From assembly GCA_016215105.1 (NCBI GenBank), contig JACRLJ010000029.1, positions 1 through 33,079 on the forward strand: a DNA stretch of 33,079 nt. The letters run 5' to 3'. The position numbers were made by a program, and so were the translations under genes. Position 1 is the first letter of the stretch; every line of letters starts with the position of its first letter. The DNA is from Candidatus Hydrogenedentota bacterium. GTDB lineage: Bacteria > Hydrogenedentota > Hydrogenedentia > Hydrogenedentales > SLHB01. The notes beneath the pieces were generated by a model. The model did not search any database. It was not told the origin of the DNA and saw nothing but the letters and a program-made list of their open reading frames with translations. Shown piece by piece: positions 15,814 through 33,079 of this stretch.

Positions 15814-15909
15814 CCGCTTGGGAATCAAGAATTGAGGAAGAGATTGAGCGGGTGTGGGGATTCAGGGCGTGGCTGGGGCGCATTTGTTATTTGCGGAATG
15901 GAGAATAGA

Positions 15910-18900
15910 ATGATGCGCATTGTGGGAAGAAACGTAGCCGTGGTTTGGGTGTGTCTGGCGGTGGCGTGGCTCGCGGGGGCGGATCCGTTGGCCGTCGAGA
16001 TGGGCCCGAATCGGGTGGATACGGTCAAGGATTTTGTGGCCGACTACAATTCGGCCACGCCGAGCAACGCCCTCGGTTCATCCGCGACGTACGACGAACG
16101 CTGCGGCGGTGTTTCGTTGCCCGGCATTTTCCTGCACCCAAAGGACGCCAACGACGCGACCCTATCGTTTCCTGGGGTTGCGGTACCCCAACCGGCGCAA
16201 GGCGGCATGTGCTTCTTGCTGTTCCGGATCGGGGTGCGCGACGGGGTCCAGTGGGCCGCGGCCGCGAACAAGCCGAACGGCGTGCGGTTTGTGGTGGTCA
16301 TTGATGGAAAGCCGGTCTTTCAGGAAGATCTCGCCAAGAGTCAGTGGGAGGCGCGCGCTATTGACATGGCGCCTTGGGCGGGAAAGACCGTCAGCGTCGA
16401 ATTCCACACGAATGCGATTGACAACAATTCCACGTATGACTGGAGCGTGTTCGGTCAGCCTATGCTGGCCACGGTGACCGGCCCAGCGAACTATCAGGAC
16501 TTGCCGAAAGATACGGTAGGCGTGGCGCTCGCCCAGGTCGAGTGTACGGCTCCGTCCACCTTTGCGGTCGCCATGGGCGGCCTTACGGAGCGCGCGATCG
16601 TCTCCGCGCCAGGCACGGCTTGGGTTCCCATTCATTTTACGGAAGTAGCGAATGTAGCGCTGAACGTCGAGAACGGCGCGGCGGAACTGAAAGGTGTGCT
16701 TGCGTCGGCTTACGCGCCTCGGCTGCAAATCAAGGACTTTGCGCTCTCATCCACGCTGGTTTCCGCGAATCATCCGTTCAATGTAGTGCTTACGATTAAG
16801 AACATGGGGCTTGGGGCCTATGTAGGCGGGCTGAACATGTCGCTGGCGACGAGCGCACAGGCGTCATTGGCGGGCCTCGGTGACAATGCCACGAAGTCGT
16901 TTCCATTGCCCAAACTCGCTCCACAAGAAGAGTCCACGCTGATATGGAATGGGTTGTCGGCGCCCGAAGAAGGGAACTGGGCGCTCATTTTTGGGGACCG
17001 CCAGTTGTCATTTCACGTCTACCCGCTGGAACCGAAGACGGCGCCAGAGCGTCCAGACGCCGTTCAGATCGCCGTCTCTCCGCAGGACCCCATTCGGGCC
17101 ACCGCCGCGAACGCTTGGTCGCGTTTGAGCTTTGTGGCGAATGGTTCCGGAGACCCCTATGCCATAGCGGAAACTTGGAACGGCGCCGCATGGCTTCGCA
17201 TGGGGTCGATGTACCCCTTGGCTGCGCTGGCGGTGCGCCACGCGGATGGCACGCGCGAGCGGCTCGCCATCAAGGTCATTTCGTTTGATTCGGTTCAGGG
17301 ATCGCTTCAATTGCGTGGTGAGGCGGCCAGCGCAAAAGGCGCCTCGTGGCCGGTCCTAATCACCTACACGCCCGCGGCGGATTCCGCGCGGATACAAATG
17401 GCGTACACGGTTACTCCGGCATTTGACGCGTCGCTGTTGGCGTTCTACGGCCCCAACATTCTCGCCGGTGATGGCGGTTTCGGCGCGAAGAAAGATTTTG
17501 CGATTTTCCCGGGCCTCGAATACCTCGAGGGGGATGAGGAATCATCTTCGACACGCGATTTGGCGTATCCCTTGAGTGATCGCCGTGTTCCGGCGGCCTA
17601 CAAAGTAGCCACGCCGCTGATGGCCGTGCAGGCCCAAGGCGGCTTGATTGGTCTGCTGTGGAACGCGAAGCAAGAGTGGGCGCCGGGACAGAAGTATCCG
17701 GCCGCGCGATTCGCCGCGCCCCGCGTGGACAGCGGCTACGATCGTATTCTCATAGCTCTTTTTGCGCCCTCCGTCGGACCATTCGTAGAAGAGAACCGCT
17801 TCGAAGCGTTTACGCCTGCTCCGCTCAAGGCCGGGCAACCCCTTGCGCTAAACGCCTGTTTGGTTCTGGATCATGCGTCGCGATATGACACCGCGAGCAT
17901 CGTGGCGGGCCCGCACAAAGGTGGCTTGGTTCTGCAAGCCATGAAACAGTGGTTCGATGTCTACGGTCTCCCCGAACCCACCGCCCAGCCGCGCGCCTGG
18001 GACGCCGAACGCGATCTATCACGCAGCGCCTACTTCCAGGCGGTGTGGAACGAGACTCCCCCGGGTTGGTCGCACTGCCAGGGATGGCTGGGACTGCTTG
18101 CGGTAGGCCACGCGGTTCCGCTCACGCTCGATAAGGAACAAGGCGTCTCGGAGGACGTGCGCAAGGAGATCGATCGCCGGATTCAGGCGGTCGTCAACCG
18201 CGCGATTGACGAAAAGGGGAAGGGCTACCTGTGGGCGGCGGACGGCTGTCACATCATGCGCGGCGAACTCCCGTTCTACTATGGGTTCGTGGCGGAGTCG
18301 ATGAAAGGGATGCTAGCCAACGCTACGCAGACCCTGGCCGGGCGCGAGAAGGGGCTGTGGGTTTGGCGGCCGCAAGACGATCAGCATAGGACGCTGGGTG
18401 TGGACGGTGACCACACGTTGGGCCAGGCGGCAGCCGGTGCGTATGTGGTCCTGCGCGCGGCGCGTCTGACCGGCAACAGCGACTTGGCCAAGCAGGCGCT
18501 TGACGCCATGAAGCAGATGGAGAAATACGAGGTGCCGCGCGGCGCGCAAGTTTGGGAGTGTCCTTTGTATCAACCGGATATTCTGGCCGCCGCACAGGCC
18601 ATTCGCGCGTACACCGAGGCGTTTCGGATCACGGGTGACGAACGTTACCTGGCGCAGGCGCGCTATTGGGCGTGGACCGGACTTCCATTCCTGTATATGT
18701 GGGACCTGGACGGATTTCCGACGATGCGCTACAACGCGATTTCCGTCATCGGTTCGACGTTCTTCACCCACTCGTGGCTGGGTATGCCCGTCGTGTGGTG
18801 CGGTCTGGTCTATGCGTACGCGCTGCAAGATCTAGCTGAGTTCGACAAGTCCTTCGATTGGAGGCGCGTGGCGCAGGGGATCACGAATTCCGCGATGCTC

Positions 18901-19353
18901 CAGCAGTACGTGGAGGGGCCGAGTAAGGGATGTTACCCCGATTCGTGGAACATGGTGAAGAACTCACCCAACCCTGCGGATATCAATCCTGAGAATATTC
19001 TCGTCAATGAATTTCGGCTCCGGGGATTGTCACCCGAAATTCGCTCGGCGCGATTGCCCGGCGTGTTTTCCCCCATTCAACTGAATTCCGCCGCCGACAT
19101 CATCGAGCCCGCGGGAGGGCTTCTTGAGAAGTCGGTACGGTTCGGTCTGAAAGGGGTTCCGGGTTCCACCGTATTTACGACGCTGACGCACGTGTCGGAT
19201 CCTGTAACTATCACTGGCGCAGGCGTACGTGTAGCAAACAGTGATGAACTCCAGGCCGCGCCGTCGGGCTGGATGTATGACGTGGAATTGCACACGGTGA
19301 TTCTCAAGAACGCGCTCACGGCGGACGCCACCAAGTGTGAGATACACTGGTAA
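15910..19353 (+). CDS. Large secreted alpha-toroid glycosidase-like protein
   Basis: This protein of about 1147 residues has a signal peptide (VAVVWVCLAVAWLAGA). The first 200 residues form a beta-sandwich, probably carbohydrate-binding (FLLFRIGVRDGVQW, FVVVIDGKPVFQEDL). A CARDB-like domain follows at about 270-370 (NHPFNVVLTIKNMGLGAY), then a beta-sandwich typical of glycosidases. The last 400 residues are helical with recurring Trp and Tyr (GWSHCQGWLGLLA, LPFYYGFVAESMKGML), as in (alpha/alpha)6 barrels. A catalytic pair cannot be assigned. The stop lies 34 nt before the GH101/DUF5696-like gene, which indicates an operon. The start is at the second of two closely placed ATG groups, chosen because GGAG precedes it. 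Its substrate is unknown; secreted polysaccharide processing is a reasonable inference. Confidence 0.7.
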   Translation: MMRIVGRNVAVVWVCLAVAWLAGADPLAVEMGPNRVDTVKDFVADYNSATPSNALGSSATYDERCGGVSLPGIFLHPKDANDATLSFPGVAVPQPAQGGMCFLLFRIGVRDGVQWAAAANKPNGVRFVVVIDGKPVFQEDLAKSQWEARAIDMAPWAGKTVSVEFHTNAIDNNSTYDWSVFGQPMLATVTGPANYQDLPKDTVGVALAQVECTAPSTFAVAMGGLTERAIVSAPGTAWVPIHFTEVANVALNVENGAAELKGVLASAYAPRLQIKDFALSSTLVSANHPFNVVLTIKNMGLGAYVGGLNMSLATSAQASLAGLGDNATKSFPLPKLAPQEESTLIWNGLSAPEEGNWALIFGDRQLSFHVYPLEPKTAPERPDAVQIAVSPQDPIRATAANAWSRLSFVANGSGDPYAIAETWNGAAWLRMGSMYPLAALAVRHADGTRERLAIKVISFDSVQGSLQLRGEAASAKGASWPVLITYTPAADSARIQMAYTVTPAFDASLLAFYGPNILAGDGGFGAKKDFAIFPGLEYLEGDEESSSTRDLAYPLSDRRVPAAYKVATPLMAVQAQGGLIGLLWNAKQEWAPGQKYPAARFAAPRVDSGYDRILIALFAPSVGPFVEENRFEAFTPAPLKAGQPLALNACLVLDHASRYDTASIVAGPHKGGLVLQAMKQWFDVYGLPEPTAQPRAWDAERDLSRSAYFQAVWNETPPGWSHCQGWLGLLAVGHAVPLTLDKEQGVSEDVRKEIDRRIQAVVNRAIDEKGKGYLWAADGCHIMRGELPFYYGFVAESMKGMLANATQTLAGREKGLWVWRPQDDQHRTLGVDGDHTLGQAAAGAYVVLRAARLTGNSDLAKQALDAMKQMEKYEVPRGAQVWECPLYQPDILAAAQAIRAYTEAFRITGDERYLAQARYWAWTGLPFLYMWDLDGFPTMRYNAISVIGSTFFTHSWLGMPVVWCGLVYAYALQDLAEFDKSFDWRRVAQGITNSAMLQQYVEGPSKGCYPDSWNMVKNSPNPADINPENILVNEFRLRGLSPEIRSARLPGVFSPIQLNSAADIIEPAGGLLEKSVRFGLKGVPGSTVFTTLTHVSDPVTITGAGVRVANSDELQAAPSGWMYDVELHTVILKNALTADATKCEIHW

Positions 19354-19387
19354 TTCTCGTTCGAACCGAAGCTGCGGGGAGAAGGTC

Positions 19388-21505
19388 ATGTTAGCGACTA
19401 TGCTTCTGCTGCTGTGTGCGGGCGCGGGAGAGGACTTGGCCCCGCGGATCGCCGTGCTGCAAACCCACCTGGAACGTTTGCACGCCATCACAGTTCCGGA
19501 GTCGCTTACGCCTGAAAAAACGGCGAAGCTGAACGAGCTCAAGACACTCCTGGACAAGGGCGCCAACTCGGTCGAGGAGTTCAACGGGCTTTACTACAAG
19601 ATAGACGAGGTACGGTCCTGGCTGTGGAAGAACGCAGTCAATAAACCCGCAAAAGCATCGGGGGAATTCAAGGGCACGGACAGCGACTGGGAGATACACG
19701 CTCCAGAGTTGACGCTGCGCGTGTCGAAGGTCGATCTTGCGATGGAAGTGACTACGGCGAAAGCCGCATGGCGGTTTCAACCGTGCGACGATGCTGACGT
19801 CGAGATGGGCGGGGCCAAATTCGGTCTTCGTTCGGCGGCCAAGCAACTGGGTGAATCCTTCGACACGGGCTATAGCAAGGGCTTGGCGCTTACCCTTTCC
19901 GAGTTTCCCGCCGCGCCGGGTTTCGAGCTTCGCCTGACCGTGAATCTTATTGGAAGCGAGATTGTGTTCGAGGCCGTGGCCAAGGACACGGCGGCGGAAC
20001 TCAAGTTCTTGCGTTGGCCCAAACCAATCGTTTTCGGCAATGCCGCGGAAGATCTGTCAGTCATCCCGATGATGCAGGGCATGCTGCTGCCGGGCGACTG
20101 GCCTCAAGAAATCAAGCGCGACGACTTGTGCAACTCGCGTACGCTCTACATGCCGTGGTGGGGGCAAATCCACGATGGCCACGGTGTGCAGACCATCCTC
20201 GAGACCAGCGACGACGCCGGGGTGCGGTACGCGCACCCGTCCGGCGGTCCGACGGTCATTCAACCCTGGTGGGCCGGGAGTCTCGGGAAGCTGCGCTACC
20301 TGCGAACGGTCCGCTACGTGTTTGATGACCAGTCAAGTTATGTCTCGATGGCGAAGCGCTACCGGCGTTACGTGCAGGAAACCGGCCGATTTGTATCGCT
20401 CGATGAGAAGCGCCAGCGCACGCCGAACGTAAACGAGGTGATTGGGCGGCCGGTGATTCACATCGGCGCATTGTACCATTTCGTTCAGCAGGCGTCTCTC
20501 TTCAATAAGGACCGCATCGAGGCCAATCACCAACTAGTGGCCTTCTCGGCGCTGGCGAATCAGTTGTGCGACTTGAAGAAGAAGGGAGTGGGGGATGCGT
20601 ATGTTCATCTCGATGGCTGGGGGTTCTACGGGTACGACAATGGTCATCCCGACGTGCTGCCGCCGGGCGAGGAGCAGGGCGGGTGGGACGGCCTGCGCGC
20701 ATTTGCGGATACTTGCGATGAGTTGGGGTACCTGTTTGCGGTACACGATCAGTATCGCGATTTCTACCTCAATGCGGCTTCGTTTGACGATCGTCTCGTC
20801 GCGACCCGGCAGGACGGTTCGAGGGAGGAACATTCGACGTGGTGCGGCGGCCCGCAGACAATCCTGAGCGCGCGCTTTGCCCCGGAGTATGTCCGCCGGA
20901 ATCATGATTTGTTCGCGAAGCAAGGCGTAAAGGTGCGCGGCGCCTATCTGGACGTGTTTGCGGTGGTCCCGCTCGAGGAGAGTTCGCCGCCGGCCCATCC
21001 GATGATGCGGACCGAGTGCGCGATGTATCGGCGGGAATGCTTCGACGTGCTCCGTGCACGGGGGTACGTAGTCAGTTCCGAGGAACCCGCGGATTATCTG
21101 GCGCCCACGCTTGACCTCGTTCATCATGGTCCCTATTCGACGACGAAAGAGGGTGGCCCGACCGGCATCCCGGTCCCCTTATTCAGTCTGGTCTATCACG
21201 ATTCGCTGTTGCTGCCGTGGGACATGGGGGAGGACGGCGGTTGGGGCATTCCAAAAGGCGACGCAGGCCGTCTGCATTGTCTACTCAACGCGGGTCTGCC
21301 TTACGTCAACGCCGGCGCCACCGAGGAACAGATCGCGCGTGTCAAGGAGGCATGCTCGCTGGGCGCCCGATGCAACACGAAGGAAATGGTGAATCACGAG
21401 TTTCTGGACGCGACACACCGAAAACAGCGTACTACCTTTAGCGATGGAACTCGGGTCACGGTGGATTTCGACGCTAAGACCCATACCATAGAACCCGGTG
21501 TATGA
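19388..21505 (+). CDS. GH101/DUF5696-like TIM-barrel secreted protein
   Basis: This 705-residue exported protein has a short signal peptide (ATMLLLLCAGAGE). It is followed by a helical, possibly coiled-coil stretch (residues about 15-85), a beta-sandwich (about 90-260) and a TIM-barrel region. The barrel shows VIGRPVIHIGALYHFVQQ, then DAYVHLDGWGFYGYDNGHPD, AVHDQYRDFY, GAYLDVFAVV and SSEEPADYLAP. These fit proteins annotated DUF5696 or related to GH101 (endo-alpha-N-acetylgalactosaminidase). The acidic residues in YLDVF and SSEEPAD are candidate catalytic residues, by analogy only. The ATG at 19388 has GGGGAGAAGG upstream. It is cotranscribed with the preceding alpha-toroid protein, and the pair likely handles one glycan outside the cytoplasm. 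Assignment is by motif memory, not by search. Confidence 0.7.
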   Translation: MLATMLLLLCAGAGEDLAPRIAVLQTHLERLHAITVPESLTPEKTAKLNELKTLLDKGANSVEEFNGLYYKIDEVRSWLWKNAVNKPAKASGEFKGTDSDWEIHAPELTLRVSKVDLAMEVTTAKAAWRFQPCDDADVEMGGAKFGLRSAAKQLGESFDTGYSKGLALTLSEFPAAPGFELRLTVNLIGSEIVFEAVAKDTAAELKFLRWPKPIVFGNAAEDLSVIPMMQGMLLPGDWPQEIKRDDLCNSRTLYMPWWGQIHDGHGVQTILETSDDAGVRYAHPSGGPTVIQPWWAGSLGKLRYLRTVRYVFDDQSSYVSMAKRYRRYVQETGRFVSLDEKRQRTPNVNEVIGRPVIHIGALYHFVQQASLFNKDRIEANHQLVAFSALANQLCDLKKKGVGDAYVHLDGWGFYGYDNGHPDVLPPGEEQGGWDGLRAFADTCDELGYLFAVHDQYRDFYLNAASFDDRLVATRQDGSREEHSTWCGGPQTILSARFAPEYVRRNHDLFAKQGVKVRGAYLDVFAVVPLEESSPPAHPMMRTECAMYRRECFDVLRARGYVVSSEEPADYLAPTLDLVHHGPYSTTKEGGPTGIPVPLFSLVYHDSLLLPWDMGEDGGWGIPKGDAGRLHCLLNAGLPYVNAGATEEQIARVKEACSLGARCNTKEMVNHEFLDATHRKQRTTFSDGTRVTVDFDAKTHTIEPGV

Positions 21506-23717: not shown

Positions 23718-26015
23718 CTACTTCGCGGCCGGCTGCGCCTTCCCTTCCTTTGCCTGCGGCAACCAGCGTTCGAGCAAGTCGTGGCAGTTGATTACCTTCT
23801 CAGCGAGGTCCGCTGGGATGTAGAAGTAATGATTCGAGGCCTCAAATCCGATGCGCGAGTCGGCATTCTGCAGTTCGAGTAGACGCCGTGCGTTGCCGAG
23901 TTCCTCGCGAAGCAGGGATTCGATCTTCCCGAGTTCAGCCGCGCGCGTGTCCGCGCTGGGCGCCTTGGTCAGTTCGTTCCGCGCGGCTACGAAGCGGACT
24001 TGATTCGCGGCGCTGCGGAAGTGAAGGCATGACGCCTCTGCCACCCGAATCTCGTCCTGAAGCGCGCTTGCCTGAGCCGGGGGCGGCGGATTGGCGCCAG
24101 CGGGCGGCGCAAACGCCTTCAGTGCAGTGAGCGCGGCTTCGAAGCCGTCGGCAATCTTGGCAAGCTGTCCCGCGAAGACGTCCGCGGGGTACTGCCCCCG
24201 CCATTGCTCCAAATCATCGTAGGGAAATCCGACCATGGTGGCGCTGTAGCCGGTGGGCTTTTCCCAAAGGAGGTTGGCGGGACCCATCTGCATAGGTTCG
24301 GTGTACAACCCGCCGCCAAAGGGAAATTCCTTGAACGCCTCGCTAAACTGCTTCCATGCGGTGACCACCGCGCCCGCGTGCGCTGCGCCGAATCGGCGAG
24401 TGGCCACCGTCAGCATGGCCTGATCGGGCGTTGCCGGAGGAGTAGACGTCTTGCCAATCTCGGCCACCACTTCGAGATTGGGCGATGGGTAACCGCCCAG
24501 AGTCCATCCCAGCATAAGACCATCCACATGGGCGTCCCGCAGATTGGCCGCGTGTTGCGCGACATTGGCGACGGCGGGGATGTATGGAACTGCCGAGAGC
24601 TCCCACGTGTTGCCAGCCTGAATTTTCGCGATGGTTTTCAGCCCTCGCGCCCGTGCGGCGTTCCAGTGGGCCGTGGCGCGTGGCCCGGGGCCGACCGCTG
24701 AAATCGAGTACTCCCAAATGCTGCTTTTCACTCCGCCGCGATCAATGGGAATACCCCATTCGCTGCCGCTCATCAACGAGGCCTCAGCAGGAAGGGCGTT
24801 CACGGCCGCAACGGCCCACTTGTCCTGCCAACCCCAGTCCCAGGCGAGCAGGCGTGTTTTGGCGCCTGCCTTACGAATGCCGGCTTGGACCAGTGAGTTC
24901 ACTTCCGCGATGACCTCCGCGGCAGTGCGTTTCGAGCAACGCGGACAATCGGCTCCGTGCTCGTGTGACCAGCAGCTCGTGAAATTCTCGGACGCCGTAA
25001 TGGTGAAGAAGCCCCCTAAGTCCGGAACGGCCTTACAGATGCTCGCCACGGAATCGGTGAGGTAGGCTTGCACTTCTGGTGCGCTGGTACACAAGGCGGC
25101 GTGATCGCCTTCGGTAGTCCCTTTCAGCTCTGGATGCTTATCGAAGAACGGCAATGGCATCGCGCGCGGCTCGTTGAAATACAGATAGATGGAAATCCCG
25201 TGCTTACGCGCGCGCGCCACGAGCGCCTTCAGGTTTTCGAGACGCTCCTGATAGCGCTCGCTGAGCTTGGCGTCCCATGGAAACGGCGCGAGTTTGTACA
25301 ACACCGCTTGCAGCCATACCCCATCCACGCCGCTGGCCGCCATCCTCGCCAGATAGGCGTCCGGATAGGGGTCGGCGTCCTTTTCGAGAAGCGGATCGCC
25401 GTATAACGCGAAATACGAATAGCAGAACCGTGGCGAGAAACCGCTGGCGGGCGGGACCGGACTCGGCTCGGACATCGGGGCCGATAGCCGCTGGACGAAC
25501 CCGAACAGCGGGTCGTGCGGCCCGTTCAAGCCCTTCGGGAGCTTGTCGCGCACGATCTTTCCGATGGCGCGCTCGCGGGCCAGCGCGGCCTCGTCCGGCG
25601 GCGAATACTTCAACGGCGCGCACTTCGGTTTCAGACTTCCGAGTTTGATGTAGAGGAAATCGTCCTCTCGCAAGGTATAAGCAAGTTGTTCCGGGGTCCA
25701 ATCCAGGAGGGTGAGTAACTGTTCGTACGGCAACACGTGCCAGTTTCGCCGAATCGCGGTGATATACGAACGCTTCTGAACGTCCGGAGTGATTGTTGGG
25801 GGATCACCGAGACCCATGGCCTGGCCCATCCGGACCATGTCCGCGGGCGCCGCGCCCAAGACCTTCGCCATCCGGTCAACCGGAACCAAGGGCCAATTCC
25901 GCCACACGAACGCATGAACCGCGTCCGGAAAATGTGGACAGGATACGGGAGAGGGCTCCGCGCCCGCCGGAAGTTCCGCTCCCGCGACTAACAAGCTCAG
26001 CATTATCGTGATCAT
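23718..26015 (-). CDS. Secreted TIM-barrel protein with N-terminal helical repeats
   Basis: This 765-residue protein has a signal-like start (MITIMLSLLVAGAELPAG). Residues about 35-70 and 86-121 are two related helical repeats: one reads RNWPLVPVDRMAKVLG and the other RNWHVLPYEQLLTLLD, each continuing P(A/E)-(D/Q)-(M/L). The region after about 195 is TIM-barrel-like (YSYFALYGDPLLEKDAD, GVDGVWLQAVLY, ISIYLYFNEPR). A conserved-looking Glu343 in TASENFTSC and a nearby Cys cluster (348, 357, 360) follow, then a C-terminal helical bundle. It resembles glycosidase-type barrels, but I cannot name a GH family. AAGGAG sits ahead of the ATG at 26013-26015, which I chose over a longer upstream frame. 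It is the last gene of the minus-strand operon and lies 85 nt after its upstream neighbour. Confidence 0.75.
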   Translation of the reverse strand: MITIMLSLLVAGAELPAGAEPSPVSCPHFPDAVHAFVWRNWPLVPVDRMAKVLGAAPADMVRMGQAMGLGDPPTITPDVQKRSYITAIRRNWHVLPYEQLLTLLDWTPEQLAYTLREDDFLYIKLGSLKPKCAPLKYSPPDEAALARERAIGKIVRDKLPKGLNGPHDPLFGFVQRLSAPMSEPSPVPPASGFSPRFCYSYFALYGDPLLEKDADPYPDAYLARMAASGVDGVWLQAVLYKLAPFPWDAKLSERYQERLENLKALVARARKHGISIYLYFNEPRAMPLPFFDKHPELKGTTEGDHAALCTSAPEVQAYLTDSVASICKAVPDLGGFFTITASENFTSCWSHEHGADCPRCSKRTAAEVIAEVNSLVQAGIRKAGAKTRLLAWDWGWQDKWAVAAVNALPAEASLMSGSEWGIPIDRGGVKSSIWEYSISAVGPGPRATAHWNAARARGLKTIAKIQAGNTWELSAVPYIPAVANVAQHAANLRDAHVDGLMLGWTLGGYPSPNLEVVAEIGKTSTPPATPDQAMLTVATRRFGAAHAGAVVTAWKQFSEAFKEFPFGGGLYTEPMQMGPANLLWEKPTGYSATMVGFPYDDLEQWRGQYPADVFAGQLAKIADGFEAALTALKAFAPPAGANPPPPAQASALQDEIRVAEASCLHFRSAANQVRFVAARNELTKAPSADTRAAELGKIESLLREELGNARRLLELQNADSRIGFEASNHYFYIPADLAEKVINCHDLLERWLPQAKEGKAQPAAK

Positions 26016-26100
26016 CGTGACTCCTTGGGATTCCTGGCGTTCACACCACCGCCTGGCGTACACCGTCCCCGCAGTTTCGTGAACGCGCCTCATTGGCGGC

Positions 26101-28806
26101 CTATTTGTTGTTTTGCCCCGAAGCTTCGAGTACCCGTTGAATCGCCGAATCCAGCCACCACCGGTAATCATCGTCCAAAGAGGCGTCGCGGGCCTCTCGC
26201 AGGGCAGGCAGACTTTCCGCCGGTCTTTGCGAAAGATTATGCACCGCGGTCTTTCGCTTTTCATAATCGGTAGATCGAAGGTCCGCAATCCACTGTGTGA
26301 TTGGCGGGGCTTCGGAATCTTTGACCGCCGTGGTATCGAAGCGCACCACAAGGGGTGTGGGATCGGCGCGGAGATCGTCGCTCGTGACTGCGCTGACTTC
26401 GATACGATGCTTGCCTGCGGGAAGATGCGGCGTAACGATCGTTTCCGAGAGCGCCTTTGTCCATGGGCCATCGTCCACACGTACCGTGAGAAAGCTTCCT
26501 TCGCGGGGCGGCTCCATCGTTAGTGTGACTCCCGTAGCAGACAGCTCCTGACTTTTGGCGACGGTCTCCGGTTTGGATTCTTGGAGGGACACCTTCAAAT
26601 AGTGATGTCCATCTTTTTCGTAGTGAAGGAAGCAGTTGCCGGTGGGATCGATCAGGGCGGCGTCCAGAGGCGGCAAGCTATCGAGGGCGGCGAATCGTTC
26701 GTCATGGAAGACGTTTGCGCATACGTCGTACCCGGACCGGAAGAGGCGACCGCTCCACAGATTCCAAGTCCGCCCCAATCTATCCGGAATGGCGGGTGTC
26801 TGAAGGAGGTGGTTCTTTATCGCGGCGGGCGTTTCTCTTGGCGCTGGTTTGATCAATTCTTTCCACGAGCCGGCGCCAGGCGCAAACGGAATCGAATGCC
26901 ACTGTCCATCGTCGCCGCATTCCCATGTTTCCTTCCAAGTGCCCACTCGCAGACGGCCTTCCTTGCTGTAGAAACACGCGCGGTCAAAGACGTTTCCTTC
27001 CGCGAAAATGTCTTTGCGGATGCTCCAACTTTTCCATGCGCGACCCTCAAATGCATAGACCTGCTCGCTGGTGTAGTACGCCAAGCGGCCATCTGGGCCA
27101 TGCACTGGCGTACGTCCAGGGTCAGTGTATTCCACCAGGTGAATTTCCTCCGTTGCGCTATGCTCCAGCGCAGCGCCAAAAGAATCGTAGACGTGCCACG
27201 TGTCCGAGTGCGAGTCGAACACCGAAACCGGTTGCTGGACTTGCTCGGGCAGTGCCCAGATCCGAGACGCGCTGTCTATCGCTAAACACGACACACGCGC
27301 CCCGGACGTACTGGATGGAACAGGCAGGTCTCGCCATTCTGCGCCATCCCAGCGGCTCAAGGCGGGGGTATCCCCGGAACTCAGCGTGTACAGGCGGTAC
27401 GCGTCGTCTTGCAGCAGGCGTGTCTTTGTAGAAAGAGTCTCCAGTACGAGCGGTTCCGTAACCATCGCTTTCAATCTTGCCGCGGGTCTTATGACGCTGC
27501 CGCGAATTTCCCCGCCGAGCAATAGGACTTTGTCGTTTCCATATGGAGCGATACCTTCGATGGAGGAAAAAGGGAGTCCTCGGCGCCAATCGAGAGGAAC
27601 GGCCTCGTCCCTTTCTTCTGGAACGTACCACAACGATGGCTTGTAGTTCGTGACGGCCCACACATCGGAGCCGACGGCAACCAGGTTCACGATCGGCGTG
27701 ACCGCTTTCGATGTTTCGACCAGCTCTGCGCCGGGAAAAGATACCTCATTCCATGCGTCTTCGCGATAGCGCCATATCTTTTTCGGGGTAAAGGCGTACC
27801 ACGTGTCATTTTGGGAGCGAAGTGTTCTGAGCCCCGCTAATGAATCTTCGGTAATTGTCTGGCGTCTTACGCGCATCGTGGAGATATCAATATCCGTCAG
27901 ACCACAAAGCATGGTCGCATCGTCTTTCCTCGTAAATCCGATGGATTTGAACGGCGCTGTACAGGGAGCGACCGGTCCATCCGATGTGAGACGAATGCCC
28001 GAGGGATCCGCGATGGCGAACTCGAAGGAATCGCAGTCCGGCCTCGACATGGTCTGCGGAAGCAAATGCTGGTCTGGCTGCGGGTCGAGTATCAACGTAT
28101 TCCGAAGTCCTGCAGACCGGTCTGTATCCGTCAACTCCTTCATCGGTATCCAGATTCTCCCCCATCCGTCCGATGGCGCCATCTTGGGAATGCGCGAACC
28201 TGCAACGACGCGGATAATCGCGTCGCCCAACGCCGATCCGGCCGGATATGACATTAGGGATTTGGCTTGCTGCGGGTGAAGTAAGAAGGCCTTCGAGTCT
28301 CCCGTAAGTAGCCATGCCGCCATCTTGGAATCGCGAAAGACCTCTATGTGATTTGGGGTCAGCGATGCTGTCCGGGACGGCGACGGTATACACCGGCCGC
28401 GCAATCCACACAACTGAACCAGTTCTCCGGACAGGTCAAGGAAGAACTGCGAACCGTCCGGGCCCGGAAAGAACTGGGGGGCCGAAAGGTTTCCGATTTC
28501 AAAGTTGTCTCCTAGCGCCGCTATGCGCCAAGTATCTTGCTCGAGCGTAATCAGCCATGCGCTTTCCTGCGGCGGGCGCGTCGAAAAGGCCGGGGCGCCG
28601 TTAGGTAGCGTCACTGCGCCTTTTGGATACCCGCGGCAGAGCGCCCAAATCCGCCCTGTGCCGTCACGAGTGATAGCCCGAAATGCTCCGCAGTCAAAGG
28701 TGTTTCCGAGTACGATGCCTTGCCCCCATTCTCTTCCTTTTTCGGGTTCGGCGGACACTGCTCCGAATAGCAGCAGGGCGATGGCGCCGTACGCAAACGA
28801 TCTCAT
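26101..28806 (-). CDS. Beta-propeller / Ig-like / HEAT-like exported protein 2
   Basis: The 901-residue product, from the ATG at 28804-28806, has a signal peptide (FAYGAIALLLFGAVSAEP). Most of it is propeller-like, with recurring D-GRIWA and W-SVR-type blades (RAITRDGTGRIWALCRG; AIDSASRIWALPE; RLAYYTSEQVYAFEG; WKSWSIRKDI). Then come an Ig-like domain (about 740-825, VDDGPWTKALSETI; AGKHRIEVSA) and a C-terminal helical hairpin (ITQWIADLRSTDYEKRKTAV) typical of HEAT-like degenerate repeats. The layout recalls the sensor part of Reg_prop/Y_Y_Y hybrid two-component proteins but without membrane or kinase parts. The start is 1 nt after the stop of the paralogue upstream. Its role, perhaps sensing or binding a ligand, is inference. 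Confidence 0.72.
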   Translation of the reverse strand: MRSFAYGAIALLLFGAVSAEPEKGREWGQGIVLGNTFDCGAFRAITRDGTGRIWALCRGYPKGAVTLPNGAPAFSTRPPQESAWLITLEQDTWRIAALGDNFEIGNLSAPQFFPGPDGSQFFLDLSGELVQLCGLRGRCIPSPSRTASLTPNHIEVFRDSKMAAWLLTGDSKAFLLHPQQAKSLMSYPAGSALGDAIIRVVAGSRIPKMAPSDGWGRIWIPMKELTDTDRSAGLRNTLILDPQPDQHLLPQTMSRPDCDSFEFAIADPSGIRLTSDGPVAPCTAPFKSIGFTRKDDATMLCGLTDIDISTMRVRRQTITEDSLAGLRTLRSQNDTWYAFTPKKIWRYREDAWNEVSFPGAELVETSKAVTPIVNLVAVGSDVWAVTNYKPSLWYVPEERDEAVPLDWRRGLPFSSIEGIAPYGNDKVLLLGGEIRGSVIRPAARLKAMVTEPLVLETLSTKTRLLQDDAYRLYTLSSGDTPALSRWDGAEWRDLPVPSSTSGARVSCLAIDSASRIWALPEQVQQPVSVFDSHSDTWHVYDSFGAALEHSATEEIHLVEYTDPGRTPVHGPDGRLAYYTSEQVYAFEGRAWKSWSIRKDIFAEGNVFDRACFYSKEGRLRVGTWKETWECGDDGQWHSIPFAPGAGSWKELIKPAPRETPAAIKNHLLQTPAIPDRLGRTWNLWSGRLFRSGYDVCANVFHDERFAALDSLPPLDAALIDPTGNCFLHYEKDGHHYLKVSLQESKPETVAKSQELSATGVTLTMEPPREGSFLTVRVDDGPWTKALSETIVTPHLPAGKHRIEVSAVTSDDLRADPTPLVVRFDTTAVKDSEAPPITQWIADLRSTDYEKRKTAVHNLSQRPAESLPALREARDASLDDDYRWWLDSAIQRVLEASGQNNK

Positions 28807-28807
28807 C

Positions 28808-31627
28808 TCATCGCCCTTTCTCACCGGCTGTTGGCGTCGCCTTCTTCAAGGCTTCTTCGCAGCGTTGTATTGCTGAATCGATCCACCATTGCGTGTCCGC
28901 ATTGGCCTTTTCCCTTGCTTCGCGCAACCGCGGGAGCGCTTCGGCGGCGCTTGCTGCTAGAGAGGCGACGGCGTCACGGCGTTTATCATAGTCGGGCGAA
29001 GAGATCTCAGCAATCCACTGGTCGACGTTGTTGACGCTAACCGACACCTCAAGCGATAGCGTTGCCGGGGAGGGAGATATGTCGAAGTGCTCGCTGATCG
29101 CGCGGACCTCGAACGAGTGCTTGCCGCCAGCGACATTTGGCAGTCGAATAGGAACGTCCTTCGTGGCGTCGTGCCATGTCCCATCGTCCATTCGCCAGGT
29201 GTACCAATAGGTCCCGGCGGGTTCCGCGCTGGGTTCGAGCACAATTGTATTGACGTTCTCGATTCGGCCAGTCAGCCGCGTCACGGGCGGGCCTTGGGGC
29301 CGGGATATCGGGACATACGTCACACCTTGGCCACCTCCCTCGACGACGACCGCGATAAAGCCTGAGCCCAGGGGATCGGTATAGACATGTCGAATCCAGT
29401 ACCCCTGGCCAAACGGGGTAAGCTCATCGTCCGAGTAGAGCGGCAGGGATATCCCGTAGGCCGCGCGGTACACCTTTTTCCAGTACTGGAGCCAGAAAGC
29501 CCCCTGCCGGTCGCGAACACACACATCAGGATTGGCGGAGGAGCCTGCCGGTGGCGTGGCTTTGGAGTCACTACGGACGGCTCCCGGGCACGAACAAGCC
29601 GTCAAGTTGATGGAACTCGGGTCCATCTCACGCCACTCGCCCGACAGTTCTAGCAACTGCCTTTTCGCGCCCTGATATTGCAGGCGGCCTAGGGTGTCGA
29701 AACAGACGTACTCTTGGACGTACGGGTCGCGTTGATGGAGGTCCTTGCGTTTGGACCATTGCCGCCATTCCGACCCGTTCGACCACCAAACGCTCTCGTT
29801 GTCTACATAGGCGAGCTGACCTCTAGGGGCGTAGGCTATGCGCCACATACTTCCCAGTTGAGCCGCATTGTAGCCCTGCACGTATTGGGGCAAAAAGACA
29901 GGTTGCTGTGGACGTTCCCCGGCGAGGGCCTCGTGATAATTGGCATAGCGTATCCAGGTTCCTTCCTCGACAGACCCGTAGGGGGGTGGGGTGAAGATTC
30001 TGACTTGGGGGCTACCTACTATCCACAAACGCCCCGAGGAATCGAAAGCCCAGCTAGCGATATGCGGGACCATGGCCATCCTGACTTGGCCCGGGGGCGG
30101 CGTGATCTGACTTGTCGGCGGATTCCCCGACGCGCCGCTTGGGGGATCCGCGCCGAACGTGCGCCATTTTCCGGATTCCCATCGCTTGAACTCGAATCCC
30201 TCTCCGCGCATCCAAATGTACCCCGGCGCATCCTGTATGAGCGTGCCTAAGGATATCGGCTCGACGCTCGGGGTACGAGGCGGGGTTTCGACGAGTGGCC
30301 GTTCTTTGTCACTCAACCAAGACCCGTCTTTCGTAGCGAACAGTATTTCCCCGTTGGGCAGGCGCTGCATGAAGTCTACTTGAGCCAGGGAAAAACCCCG
30401 ATGGCGGTCAAACCGCTCGAGTTTACCGTCTTTCGATACGAACACGGCGCCGTTCCCGTTGTACGCGCCCACCCAAAGCCCAAGCTCGCCCCCGAGAAAG
30501 GGGCGTTCCTGCCCGAATTCAGGCGCCATTTTGTTATCGCCATCCATCGACTTAAGAAGTTCAGTCCATACCCCATCCTTTTCCTGCCAGAGGGAGTTGT
30601 GATCAGACGCATACCACGAGCCTTGATATTGAATTATGCGGGAGAGACCCCTCATGTGCTGACCTGGCGCAAGCCGGATCTCCTTGGCGGAGAGCGTGCG
30701 CACGTCCACCTCCTTTAGCGTGTGACTCATCATACCCAGCCAAAACGTGTTTTCATCTTTGGGCACAGTGAAACTCACATCGTCGTCACGCACGCGGTCT
30801 TGCGGGCTGCGCAGCAACTCGAAATGGGAATTGCGATCTACAATTGAGGTAGGCGGGAAGCCCGCGCCGAGCGTATCGAGGGGCGTTTTCGCCGCATCGA
30901 AGTTCGGATCCAGAATCAGCGCCCATTCAAGAACAGTGTCCCGATTTCTTCCCGTCGGGATTTCGTCACGCGGGTACCAGAAACGTCCCAGCGAGTCTTT
31001 CACGAATTTGACCGCTTGTGCCCCCTCCATCCTGCGTCCAAAGTACGCCCCAAGGCCGAACTTCATGATCGGGTCGTATTTCTTGGGGCCCTCAATGAAG
31101 AACTGCTCAGGCGACCCCCACACCAGCCACGGAACTCCGGAACCGTCTTCAAAAAGCAGCCAATCGCTTTCCTCGCCCTTGCCGTGCGCCAGCGGCATCC
31201 AGCGCGCTCGATCTCCACGAAGCTGGACTCCTGGCGCTTCCGAAAGACTGTTTACGGCGCATACGGTTCCATCCGGACCGGGGTAGAGGTCCTCCATCCA
31301 GAACAATTCCTGAGCGCCGGTATCGGAAATCGGTTTGATGTGAAATGTCTGAAGATACTTCAGTGCGTCCGGCGAGTACGCGAGTTTCGCGGGAGTCCAC
31401 CCCTCTTCAGTCCAACGGGCCAGGATTCGGCTACGTTCTTTTCCGAAGTACATGATTCCCCAGATTGTGTTCTTCGCGTCGGTACAGACTGCATGGACCG
31501 ACGCGTCTTTGACCGCGGCGCCCCACGTAATCGCATCTCCCCAGTCATTGCGCATAGCAGGAGGCGCGGCGAACACCGTTCGGGACATAGCCAATAGAAC
31601 TGCGAGTAGAACTGTGCGATTCGTCAT
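28808..31627 (-). CDS. Beta-propeller / Ig-like / HEAT-like exported protein 1
   Basis: This 939-residue paralogue of the following gene has a signal peptide (VLLAVLLAMSRTVFAAPP) and starts WGDAITWGAAVKDASVHAV, like its neighbour. Propeller blades repeat with GRLWIVG, WWSNGSEWRQW and LAYVDNESVWW. An Ig-like domain follows (about 785-865, WRMDDGTWHDAT; GGKHSFEVRAIS), then VNNVDQWIAEISSPDYDKRR, the same helical-hairpin tail. I chose the ATG at 31625-31627, which has a GGGGTAAGAAG stretch before it; an in-frame ATG 42 nt earlier also exists. The stop lies 1 nt before its paralogue's start and the start is 29 nt after the DUF4139 gene, so the three are one transcript. No enzyme motif was found. 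It is likely secreted or periplasmic. Confidence 0.72.
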   Translation of the reverse strand: MTNRTVLLAVLLAMSRTVFAAPPAMRNDWGDAITWGAAVKDASVHAVCTDAKNTIWGIMYFGKERSRILARWTEEGWTPAKLAYSPDALKYLQTFHIKPISDTGAQELFWMEDLYPGPDGTVCAVNSLSEAPGVQLRGDRARWMPLAHGKGEESDWLLFEDGSGVPWLVWGSPEQFFIEGPKKYDPIMKFGLGAYFGRRMEGAQAVKFVKDSLGRFWYPRDEIPTGRNRDTVLEWALILDPNFDAAKTPLDTLGAGFPPTSIVDRNSHFELLRSPQDRVRDDDVSFTVPKDENTFWLGMMSHTLKEVDVRTLSAKEIRLAPGQHMRGLSRIIQYQGSWYASDHNSLWQEKDGVWTELLKSMDGDNKMAPEFGQERPFLGGELGLWVGAYNGNGAVFVSKDGKLERFDRHRGFSLAQVDFMQRLPNGEILFATKDGSWLSDKERPLVETPPRTPSVEPISLGTLIQDAPGYIWMRGEGFEFKRWESGKWRTFGADPPSGASGNPPTSQITPPPGQVRMAMVPHIASWAFDSSGRLWIVGSPQVRIFTPPPYGSVEEGTWIRYANYHEALAGERPQQPVFLPQYVQGYNAAQLGSMWRIAYAPRGQLAYVDNESVWWSNGSEWRQWSKRKDLHQRDPYVQEYVCFDTLGRLQYQGAKRQLLELSGEWREMDPSSINLTACSCPGAVRSDSKATPPAGSSANPDVCVRDRQGAFWLQYWKKVYRAAYGISLPLYSDDELTPFGQGYWIRHVYTDPLGSGFIAVVVEGGGQGVTYVPISRPQGPPVTRLTGRIENVNTIVLEPSAEPAGTYWYTWRMDDGTWHDATKDVPIRLPNVAGGKHSFEVRAISEHFDISPSPATLSLEVSVSVNNVDQWIAEISSPDYDKRRDAVASLAASAAEALPRLREAREKANADTQWWIDSAIQRCEEALKKATPTAGEKGR

Positions 31628-31656
31628 CTTCTTACCCCCGCGTCTGGTCGCGACCA

Positions 31657-33079
31657 CTACCAAGTGCAATGCGCTGTATAGGTGATCTTCTTCTCTTCCG
31701 CAGGCTTGATCTGCACGCGGAATTCGACCGTGCCGTCAGGCAGCTTCTGGTAGGGGTCCGAGGACTCGGTGATTTCCCATTTCTTGCCGCGGTACAGATG
31801 CTCAATAACGCGGATGACGGCCTCGGTCTTGGTGTCGTTCTTCAAGGCAATCTCGAACGATTCGGTGGCGCCCATCGGCGGTTGGTCCTCTTTGAAGCTG
31901 GTCTGCCGCCGTGAACCCGAAAGGCCCTCCGCGTTCCCCAAGAACAGGCTCACCTTCCCATCAACGGGCAGGGGGCCAATCTTGTCATCACCGAGGAAGT
32001 CCAATTGCCCTTTGTTGCGTCGAAACGCATGCAGCCGGCCTGAGGGCAATGGCGACCCTGGACCGTCTTCCGGCGCATTGGTGAATTCGCCCATCGCGAT
32101 CACTTCTTTACGCGATTCGGTTCCGAGCGTCCGATTCCGCTGCGAACCTTCAAGGTAGTCCGCGCGCATGTTCGCAGGCATTTTCCAGCCGTCGTACACA
32201 TAGGCCGGCGCCAGCGCCGCCTGCTGGCGGCGAACAAACTCGACGCGCACCGGACTTCCGTCAATCAGGGCAACCGGGGCAGGGAGGGAAAAATACTGGA
32301 AGTCGGTCCGTACGGACGGAAGTGGCGCGAAGGTGCGCATCGAACGGGCGGCGGCGTACGCCGCGGCTTGATACGCGTCCGGCGGATAGTATCCTTCTTC
32401 GCCAGGACGCGCCGGTTTGTCCGGGCGATCGGTTGCAGTCGCGAGTCTCAGTTTCGCGTTGTCGAAGCTCTTGCCACAGGTATTGGTCAGGGTCATCCAG
32501 CCAACGAGTTCAAGCCCGCCTTGTTCCGTCAGAATCGCATTGTAGTCCGCCTGCCACGTAATTCCCCGTGTGACATACGACACATCAAGGTCGGCATGGC
32601 CCGCCTGTTTGGACTCCAGTGTCAGGGTCAGGGTCGGATTCAGGGTAACACCCTCGGGAAGCGGGGGAAACTGGGGTTTTCCAGGGACCTCGACGCACAG
32701 CCGTCCGTTGACCTCGATGACGGGCTGTACTCCTCTGCCTGTGTTGGAGCTCCGAAGGATCTTACCGTCAATCGTTCGCGATTCTCCCGCAGTGGTGATC
32801 ACGAACGGAATTGTGGAACCCTCGAAAATGGAATATAGGCCCTCCGGTGTCGCCACTTTGCCTGGATAATCCAACTGGAGCATGCGAACGCCCCCGGGCG
32901 CCGAGCTGTTGAGCACAAAGGAATAGGGTTCCAAGAACGCGGGCACGTTAGATACGACGATTCGGTTGGAACCCTCCTTTAGTTCAGCGGGTATGACATC
33001 GTGGACGACCGCGAAGTCACCGTCGTAAATCGTGAGATCGGCTGCTCCCGTTGGACGTGATACCAATGCAAACATGGCG
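31657..33079 (-). CDS. DUF4139-domain protein, partial
   Basis: This is the first visible gene of the right-hand operon and is cut by the window edge; the frame stays open through 33079. An ATG at 33073-33075 may be internal, since a full signal peptide seems to begin beyond the edge. The seen 470 residues begin ADLTIYDGDFAVVHDVIPAEL and continue with FVLNSSAPGGVRMLQLDYPG, a pattern of DUF4139 N-terminal strands. The C-terminal part has DLDVSYVTRGITWQADY (about 165-181), which is the family hallmark, and ends IKPAEEKKITYTAHCTW. DUF4139 proteins are exported or secreted beta-rich proteins of no agreed function. It precedes the propeller pair by 29 nt, so the genes likely work together. Confidence 0.8.
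   Translation of the reverse strand, partial: AMFALVSRPTGAADLTIYDGDFAVVHDVIPAELKEGSNRIVVSNVPAFLEPYSFVLNSSAPGGVRMLQLDYPGKVATPEGLYSIFEGSTIPFVITTAGESRTIDGKILRSSNTGRGVQPVIEVNGRLCVEVPGKPQFPPLPEGVTLNPTLTLTLESKQAGHADLDVSYVTRGITWQADYNAILTEQGGLELVGWMTLTNTCGKSFDNAKLRLATATDRPDKPARPGEEGYYPPDAYQAAAYAAARSMRTFAPLPSVRTDFQYFSLPAPVALIDGSPVRVEFVRRQQAALAPAYVYDGWKMPANMRADYLEGSQRNRTLGTESRKEVIAMGEFTNAPEDGPGSPLPSGRLHAFRRNKGQLDFLGDDKIGPLPVDGKVSLFLGNAEGLSGSRRQTSFKEDQPPMGATESFEIALKNDTKTEAVIRVIEHLYRGKKWEITESSDPYQKLPDGTVEFRVQIKPAEEKKITYTAHCTW

Follow-up and report, generated by a model that had tools for sequence, protein, structure and literature searches.

The DNA analysed here (the window) covers bases 1 to 33,079 of JACRLJ010000029.1, a contig of 40.6 kb from the assembly GCA_016215105.1 (6.7 Mb in 171 contigs) of a Candidatus Hydrogenedentota bacterium. 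Towards the end of the window lie four large open reading frames (ORFs), all on the minus strand, which encode, in order, a DUF4139 protein, the propeller proteins A and B, and a TIM-like protein. The DUF4139 gene is taken as the first of the run because the next upstream gene, encoding a DUF2339 protein, is divergent; it extends past the window end and has 495 codons on the parent contig, some of them unread. The initial annotation had described a four-gene operon with spacings of 29, 1 and 85 nucleotides (nt), and these gaps are exact with the starts read from the sequence. The four genes do share a strand, but only three of them recur together in relatives, the TIM-like gene never being among them. 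The features are as follows:

31657..33079, minus strand: DUF4139 (MuiA-like) protein, opening the run and cut by the window end (473 of its 495 codons inside)
28808..31627, minus strand: propeller protein A, 939 amino acids (aa), with signal-peptide-like start, propeller region, Ig-like domain and helical tail
29033..29293, minus strand: Ig/FN3-like beta-sandwich of protein A (aa 779-865), from an AlphaFold2 (AF2) model and fold search
28838..29026, minus strand: tail region of protein A (aa 868-930), predicted by AF2 as four helices with local confidence (pLDDT) mostly 75-92, HEAT-like by analogy
26101..28806, minus strand: propeller protein B, the 901-aa paralogue of A, starting 1 nt past the stop of A
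23718..26015, minus strand: TIM-barrel, glycoside-hydrolase-like protein, adjoining the other three genes only in this genome, the gene itself being widespread

Conservation of this order was followed by profile in 68 genomes, own genome included, for which order and phylum are the same set, the search covering this phylum; single-sequence searches covered 60 genomes, again with the own genome included. Protein A as a single query gave matches in three of the 60, its own among them. A profile of the C-terminal half of the propeller proteins (A1) matched in 7/68 genomes at E 1e-8 and in 23/68 at E 0.001, and six carriers were counted: the own genome (G000), G007, G039, G061, G062 and G066. G055 was dropped, as its match (E 9.7e-10 over 112 positions) comprises the Ig-type segment only, and so were the weaker matches at E 0.001, which are mostly short stretches of the Ig-type part and were not inspected singly. 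G015, whose DUF4139 gene precedes one that gives a weak Ig-type match (E 5.8e-5), was not counted either.

Direct adjacency of DUF4139 and propeller genes was found in four of the six carriers (G000, G007, G039 and G061). The DUF4139 gene lies directly upstream of the propeller gene on the same strand, at 29 nt in the window and 20 nt in G039; the gap is about 40 nt in G007, as read from ORFs, and in G061 there is a 4-nt overlap or a 20-nt gap, depending on the start chosen. The G061 locus consists of a DUF4139 gene, three propeller genes (905, 1429 and 1422 aa by first possible start) and a gene for a small protein, X, with overlapping ORFs and a second, divergent X gene upstream of the run. 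The order in G039 is X, DUF4139, a propeller gene (1323 aa) and the start of another propeller gene cut by the contig end, and a further contig begins within a propeller gene. G007 carries two DUF4139 genes followed by a propeller gene cut by the contig end, while another contig ends in a propeller C-terminus. G066 has X and DUF4139 at one contig end and two consecutive propeller genes on another contig, and G062 has a short propeller copy of 378 aa, with no DUF4139 gene on its 3.4-kb contig. The split contigs of one carrier presumably belong together.

The run thus recurs in relatives beside the same kind of partner protein and looks like a real module, and its recurring core is three genes, not four. 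The initial annotation had staked its case on gene order being kept in a relative; this proved so for the DUF4139 and propeller genes and not for the TIM-like gene. A scan of named genomes with the tail alignment (A3) returned seven uninspected loci with 30-66 of 130 residues matched; it used two short patterns, possibly excluded the own genome and is uninformative on absence outside the phylum. A plasmid search with protein A gave no match, and no description of such a gene set was found in the open-licence full-text literature, in which no query paired DUF4139 with propeller.

Proteins A and B are paralogues, as the initial annotation had proposed, with 24% identity over 977 columns (E 1e-46), and share the start, a 'G-LAY..W..WS-RKD' stretch, the Ig-like region and the helical tail. 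Between the two families, propeller identity is 19-24%; the first-position propellers of G039, G061 and G066 cluster together, and propeller copies 2 and 3 of G061, at 50% identity, are a tandem duplication. Matches to a blade pattern devised in this analysis were counted against 2000 shuffles. Protein A gave 10 matches at 9 sites (shuffled mean 1.6, with 0/2000 shuffles as high) and the TIM-like protein, taken as a contrast, gave 2 (404/2000 shuffles as high); any blade number read from such sites, such as the two seven-bladed propellers of the BT4663-type sensor, would be tentative. Among domain matches, neither A nor B reaches the Reg_prop cut-off, which the G007 relative alone exceeds (24.9 vs 20.4 bits); BiPBP_C, an Ig-like domain, is found in the G039 propeller at E 1e-4, under the cut-off, and HEAT_2 in the relative G061_2 at E 7e-4 (20.2 vs cut-off 27.7 bits).

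PDB sequence searches with single proteins gave nothing significant, the match of B to 5m11, an antigen taken here to be PorZ, being at chance level (E 0.84). The propeller-family profile (A5) matched the BT4663 ectodomain (4a2l) with E 1.5e-6 (whole chain, propeller region) and BT3049 with E 0.023. No histidine kinase or receiver domain was matched by Pfam in A, B or the relatives scanned, and hydropathy gave no membrane helix after the ectodomain in A, B or four relatives. The initial annotation had likened A and B to sensor halves of hybrid two-component proteins without a kinase, and this is supported; the export-side sensing or assembly role that it raised for a surface complex stays putative. 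A and B resemble the BT4663-type sensor (4a2l, 4a2m) in the propeller region, by the family-profile match, and in the Ig-like domain after it, but they lack the membrane helix and the kinase and have instead a helical tail, tandem copies and a DUF4139 neighbour. Membrane-like stretches by hydropathy are N-terminal only in A and the TIM-like protein, absent in B and in the DUF4139 protein (which has unread residues), and N-terminal only or absent in the four relatives. Read by eye, all four N-termini of the run are signal-peptide-like and the proteins are probably exported.

An AF2 model of aa 735-939 of protein A (mean pLDDT 62.4) contains a strand-rich part followed by the four helices. Foldseek with this model placed BT4663 (4a2m) first (E 3.2e-4, TMq 0.34, root-mean-square deviation (rmsd) 7.9), with unrelated FN3 folds tied, and VIA-align gave Z of about 10 to many FN3 domains over model residues 45-131. 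PorZ is not among the fold-search matches listed, which excludes nothing. Taking the A5 profile and the Foldseek and VIA-align results together, the sequence points to a sensor ectodomain, whereas the fold goes no further than an Ig/FN3-like domain and a tail of helices.

The partner protein in the window matches DUF4139 (PF13598) with 38.8 bits against a cut-off of 31.8, and DUF4140 with 17.9 against 27. It resembles MuiA (PF13598, TIGR02231) in having the DUF4139 domain over the Pfam cut-off and differs from it in belonging to a diverged branch tied to propellers. DUF4139 is matched in 54 of 60 genomes and the own genome has four such genes. In a tree of 34 rows, with final labels in which the G007 copy next to the propeller is the only G007 copy labelled and G066 is added, the propeller-linked rows cluster (2 changes, with 0/500 shuffles as low). 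The G039, G066 and G061 rows form a clade with support 100/100, and a single clade of the five linked proteins, a group chosen after the first tree, is not rejected (approximately unbiased (AU) test, p 0.495). Two observations on DUF4139 genes stand beside this. The adjacent pair in G007 (L049 1579-4732) comprises a slow copy, near the own genome's C54 copy, and a faster one that adjoins the propeller, and looks like a duplication with unequal divergence. Tandem pairs of more canonical DUF4139 genes, located away from propellers, also recur in several of the order's genomes (L128, L129, L130, L016 and L017).

Protein X joins the module in three carriers of family f10, and has no Pfam family over the cut-off. 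As a small protein it is represented by its four strongest matches (all at E < 1e-38), two in G061 and one each in G039 and G066; only the G066 copy is an independent find, the other three having served to build the profile of X. X-like segments, mostly inside larger frames, total 31/68 genomes at E 0.001, with no match at this threshold in the own genome. The copies of X are located as follows:

L051 5593-6402: protein X copy
L089 10213-11304: protein X copy
L088 16431-17528: protein X copy
L145 1383-2192: protein X copy

The locus looks like a real recurring module with few carriers, in which a known ectodomain type appears in an unusual kinase-free setting, and not like a new kind of system. 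We tentatively regard as its best explanation, with slightly less than even confidence, a recurring module of probably exported proteins in which the propellers, as ligand binders or as a scaffold, would act with a diverged DUF4139 protein at the envelope. The module would pair a single diverged DUF4139 (MuiA-like) protein with between one and three BT4663-ectodomain-like proteins, whose helical tail would stand where a sensor continues into membrane and kinase. These proteins would reach the periplasm or surface, where the propellers may bind a ligand; BT4663, described as binding disaccharides on its propellers (PMC5121618), makes a glycan the likeliest candidate by analogy. The Ig domain and tail may dock the propellers onto the DUF4139 protein, and the whole could work as a complex that binds matrix or deals with envelope polysaccharide, instead of signalling to the cytoplasm. 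The suggestion of a glycan-related complex at the envelope draws on this report and on those of MuiA, which link it with biofilm, motility and envelope stress: MuiA of Pseudomonas is described as inhibiting swarming and enhancing biofilm (PMC7603352), and a review lists it as an inhibitor of alginate within an envelope-stress regulon, stating that its role should be re-evaluated (PMC10418997).

Several points weigh against this explanation. The MuiA literature is itself in conflict, alginate inhibitor standing against biofilm enhancer in the account of the review (PMC10418997). Contig ends interrupt the loci of G007, G039 (at its second propeller) and G066, and the order there is read across these breaks. 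On the DUF4139 side, the window protein reaches 35.1 bits with the MuiA model TIGR02231, far below the cut-off of 112.6, and it is the only one of the five propeller-linked proteins to pass Pfam, the others scoring 20.9-29.1 against 31.8 bits. The first tree, in which both copies of G007 bore the label, needed 3 changes, with 8/500 shuffles as low, and the labels were changed afterwards; the tree carries long-branch warnings, with five rows flagged as long (the propeller-linked G000, G007, G061 and G066, together with G006) and G039 on a long stem. On the propeller side, the blade pattern is weak in B (4 matches at 2 sites, 42/2000 shuffles as high), no single stretch passes alone in the A5-BT4663 match, and A, B and the relatives scanned have no Pfam match to Y_Y_Y. 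The full-length AF2 model of A, with B as the sole other row, has a mean pLDDT of 32.8 and was unused for the fold search. The 13 Foldseek matches of the shorter model at E 0.001 comprise six BT4663/BT3049 chains and seven unrelated ones, mostly FN3-type receptors, at rmsd 7-8 Å, and BT4663 is not among the 50 VIA-align matches listed.

A bolder form of the proposal, which we consider unlikely as it stands, is that the module is an offshoot of hybrid-sensor ectodomains that has no kinase and lies wholly outside the cytoplasm. Its tandem propellers, docking through a HEAT-like tail, would relay ligand binding to the DUF4139 protein (and to X in one family), building or gating an envelope polysaccharide. 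If true, such an offshoot would be a kind of receptor complex not found described in the literature searched. The module shows sensor ectodomains reused without the signalling half. DUF4139 proteins are widespread in this lineage and have received little study under that name, which two unrelated papers mention in the literature searched; a recurring partner of ligand-binding type offers a handle on their role.

Among other explanations, the propellers may act as soluble receptors for a kinase or sigma-factor system encoded elsewhere. This is suggested by the relation to the BT4663 ectodomain and by the presence on the contig of an FHA-GAF-HATPase gene about 4-6 kb upstream; however, a DUF2339 gene and a tRNA nucleotidyltransferase gene lie between that gene and the run, and no membrane or kinase gene occurs within the run in the four resolved loci, and such a sensing system appears quite improbable. 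It may also be that the genes are neighbours without a functional link that were kept together by descent, as would fit the small number of propeller carriers, six, with adjacency resolved in four. Yet the order is kept although the propellers of the two families are so divergent, and, with four DUF4139 genes in the own genome, chance adjacency in four genomes seems very unlikely (an estimate, not computed), which makes the absence of any link distinctly unlikely too.

The four genes could alternatively form a catabolic unit, with a polysaccharide held by the propellers and cleaved by the TIM-like enzyme, and with the DUF4139 protein as an envelope helper. In its favour, AAGGAG precedes the start of the TIM-like gene at 85 nt from B, GH28-like and GH101-like genes occur elsewhere in the window, and the TIM family has weak matches to the GH67 middle domain (3/18 members, best E 0.0043) and DUF4838 (1/18, E 0.006). 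The TIM family differs from these barrels in that the window protein itself remains below the cut-off (PF07488, 12.4 vs 23.5 bits) and the family profile finds no PDB relative, three matches with E 0.09-0.35 being taken as chance. The TIM-like gene is matched in 51 of 60 genomes (weakly in G016 and G049), the best full-length copies elsewhere being 48-66% identical. None of the 20 neighbourhoods of TIM-like genes in relatives contains a DUF4139, propeller or X match by profile at E 0.001, with an upstream reach of at least 2 kb in 16 and of 0.3-0.7 kb in the other four. In G007 and G039 the module and the TIM orthologue lie on different contigs, and the TIM-like protein is 57-59% identical to the copies in these genomes, compared with 25-35% for the propellers. 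No transporter is found among the four genes, and a catabolic unit is accordingly judged very doubtful. The neighbourhoods and the separate contigs instead indicate that the TIM-like gene is an independent, slower-evolving neighbour, which stands outside the module and may be co-transcribed with it here; its inclusion as a member in the initial annotation was not upheld. Finally, the proteins might serve secretion or surface assembly in the manner of PorZ, from the type IX system of Porphyromonas gingivalis. PorZ is described as having two propellers and a beta-sandwich and is compared with BT4663 by its authors, and the chance-level hit of B to 5m11 points the same way. This reading is most improbable, as that sequence match is not significant, the tail of A is helical, and the translocon protein SprA is unmatched in 68/68 genomes, a weak point given that 14 controls are equally silent.

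The TIM family alignment (n = 18; window member at 23721-26015) has invariant C348, H351, C357 and C360, possibly a metal site. Upstream of the run, the contig encodes the divergent DUF2339 protein, the tRNA nucleotidyltransferase and then the FHA-GAF-HATPase protein (L047 2426-7890). Elsewhere in the window, a DUF5696/GH101-like protein is encoded at 19337-21505 and overlaps by 17 nt with the gene for a 1173-aa protein (both within 15832-21505) that has a weak NPCBM match under the cut-off. The protein encoded at 120-1604 carries an IMS (impB/mucB/samB) domain, with 24.6 bits against a cut-off of 23.2.

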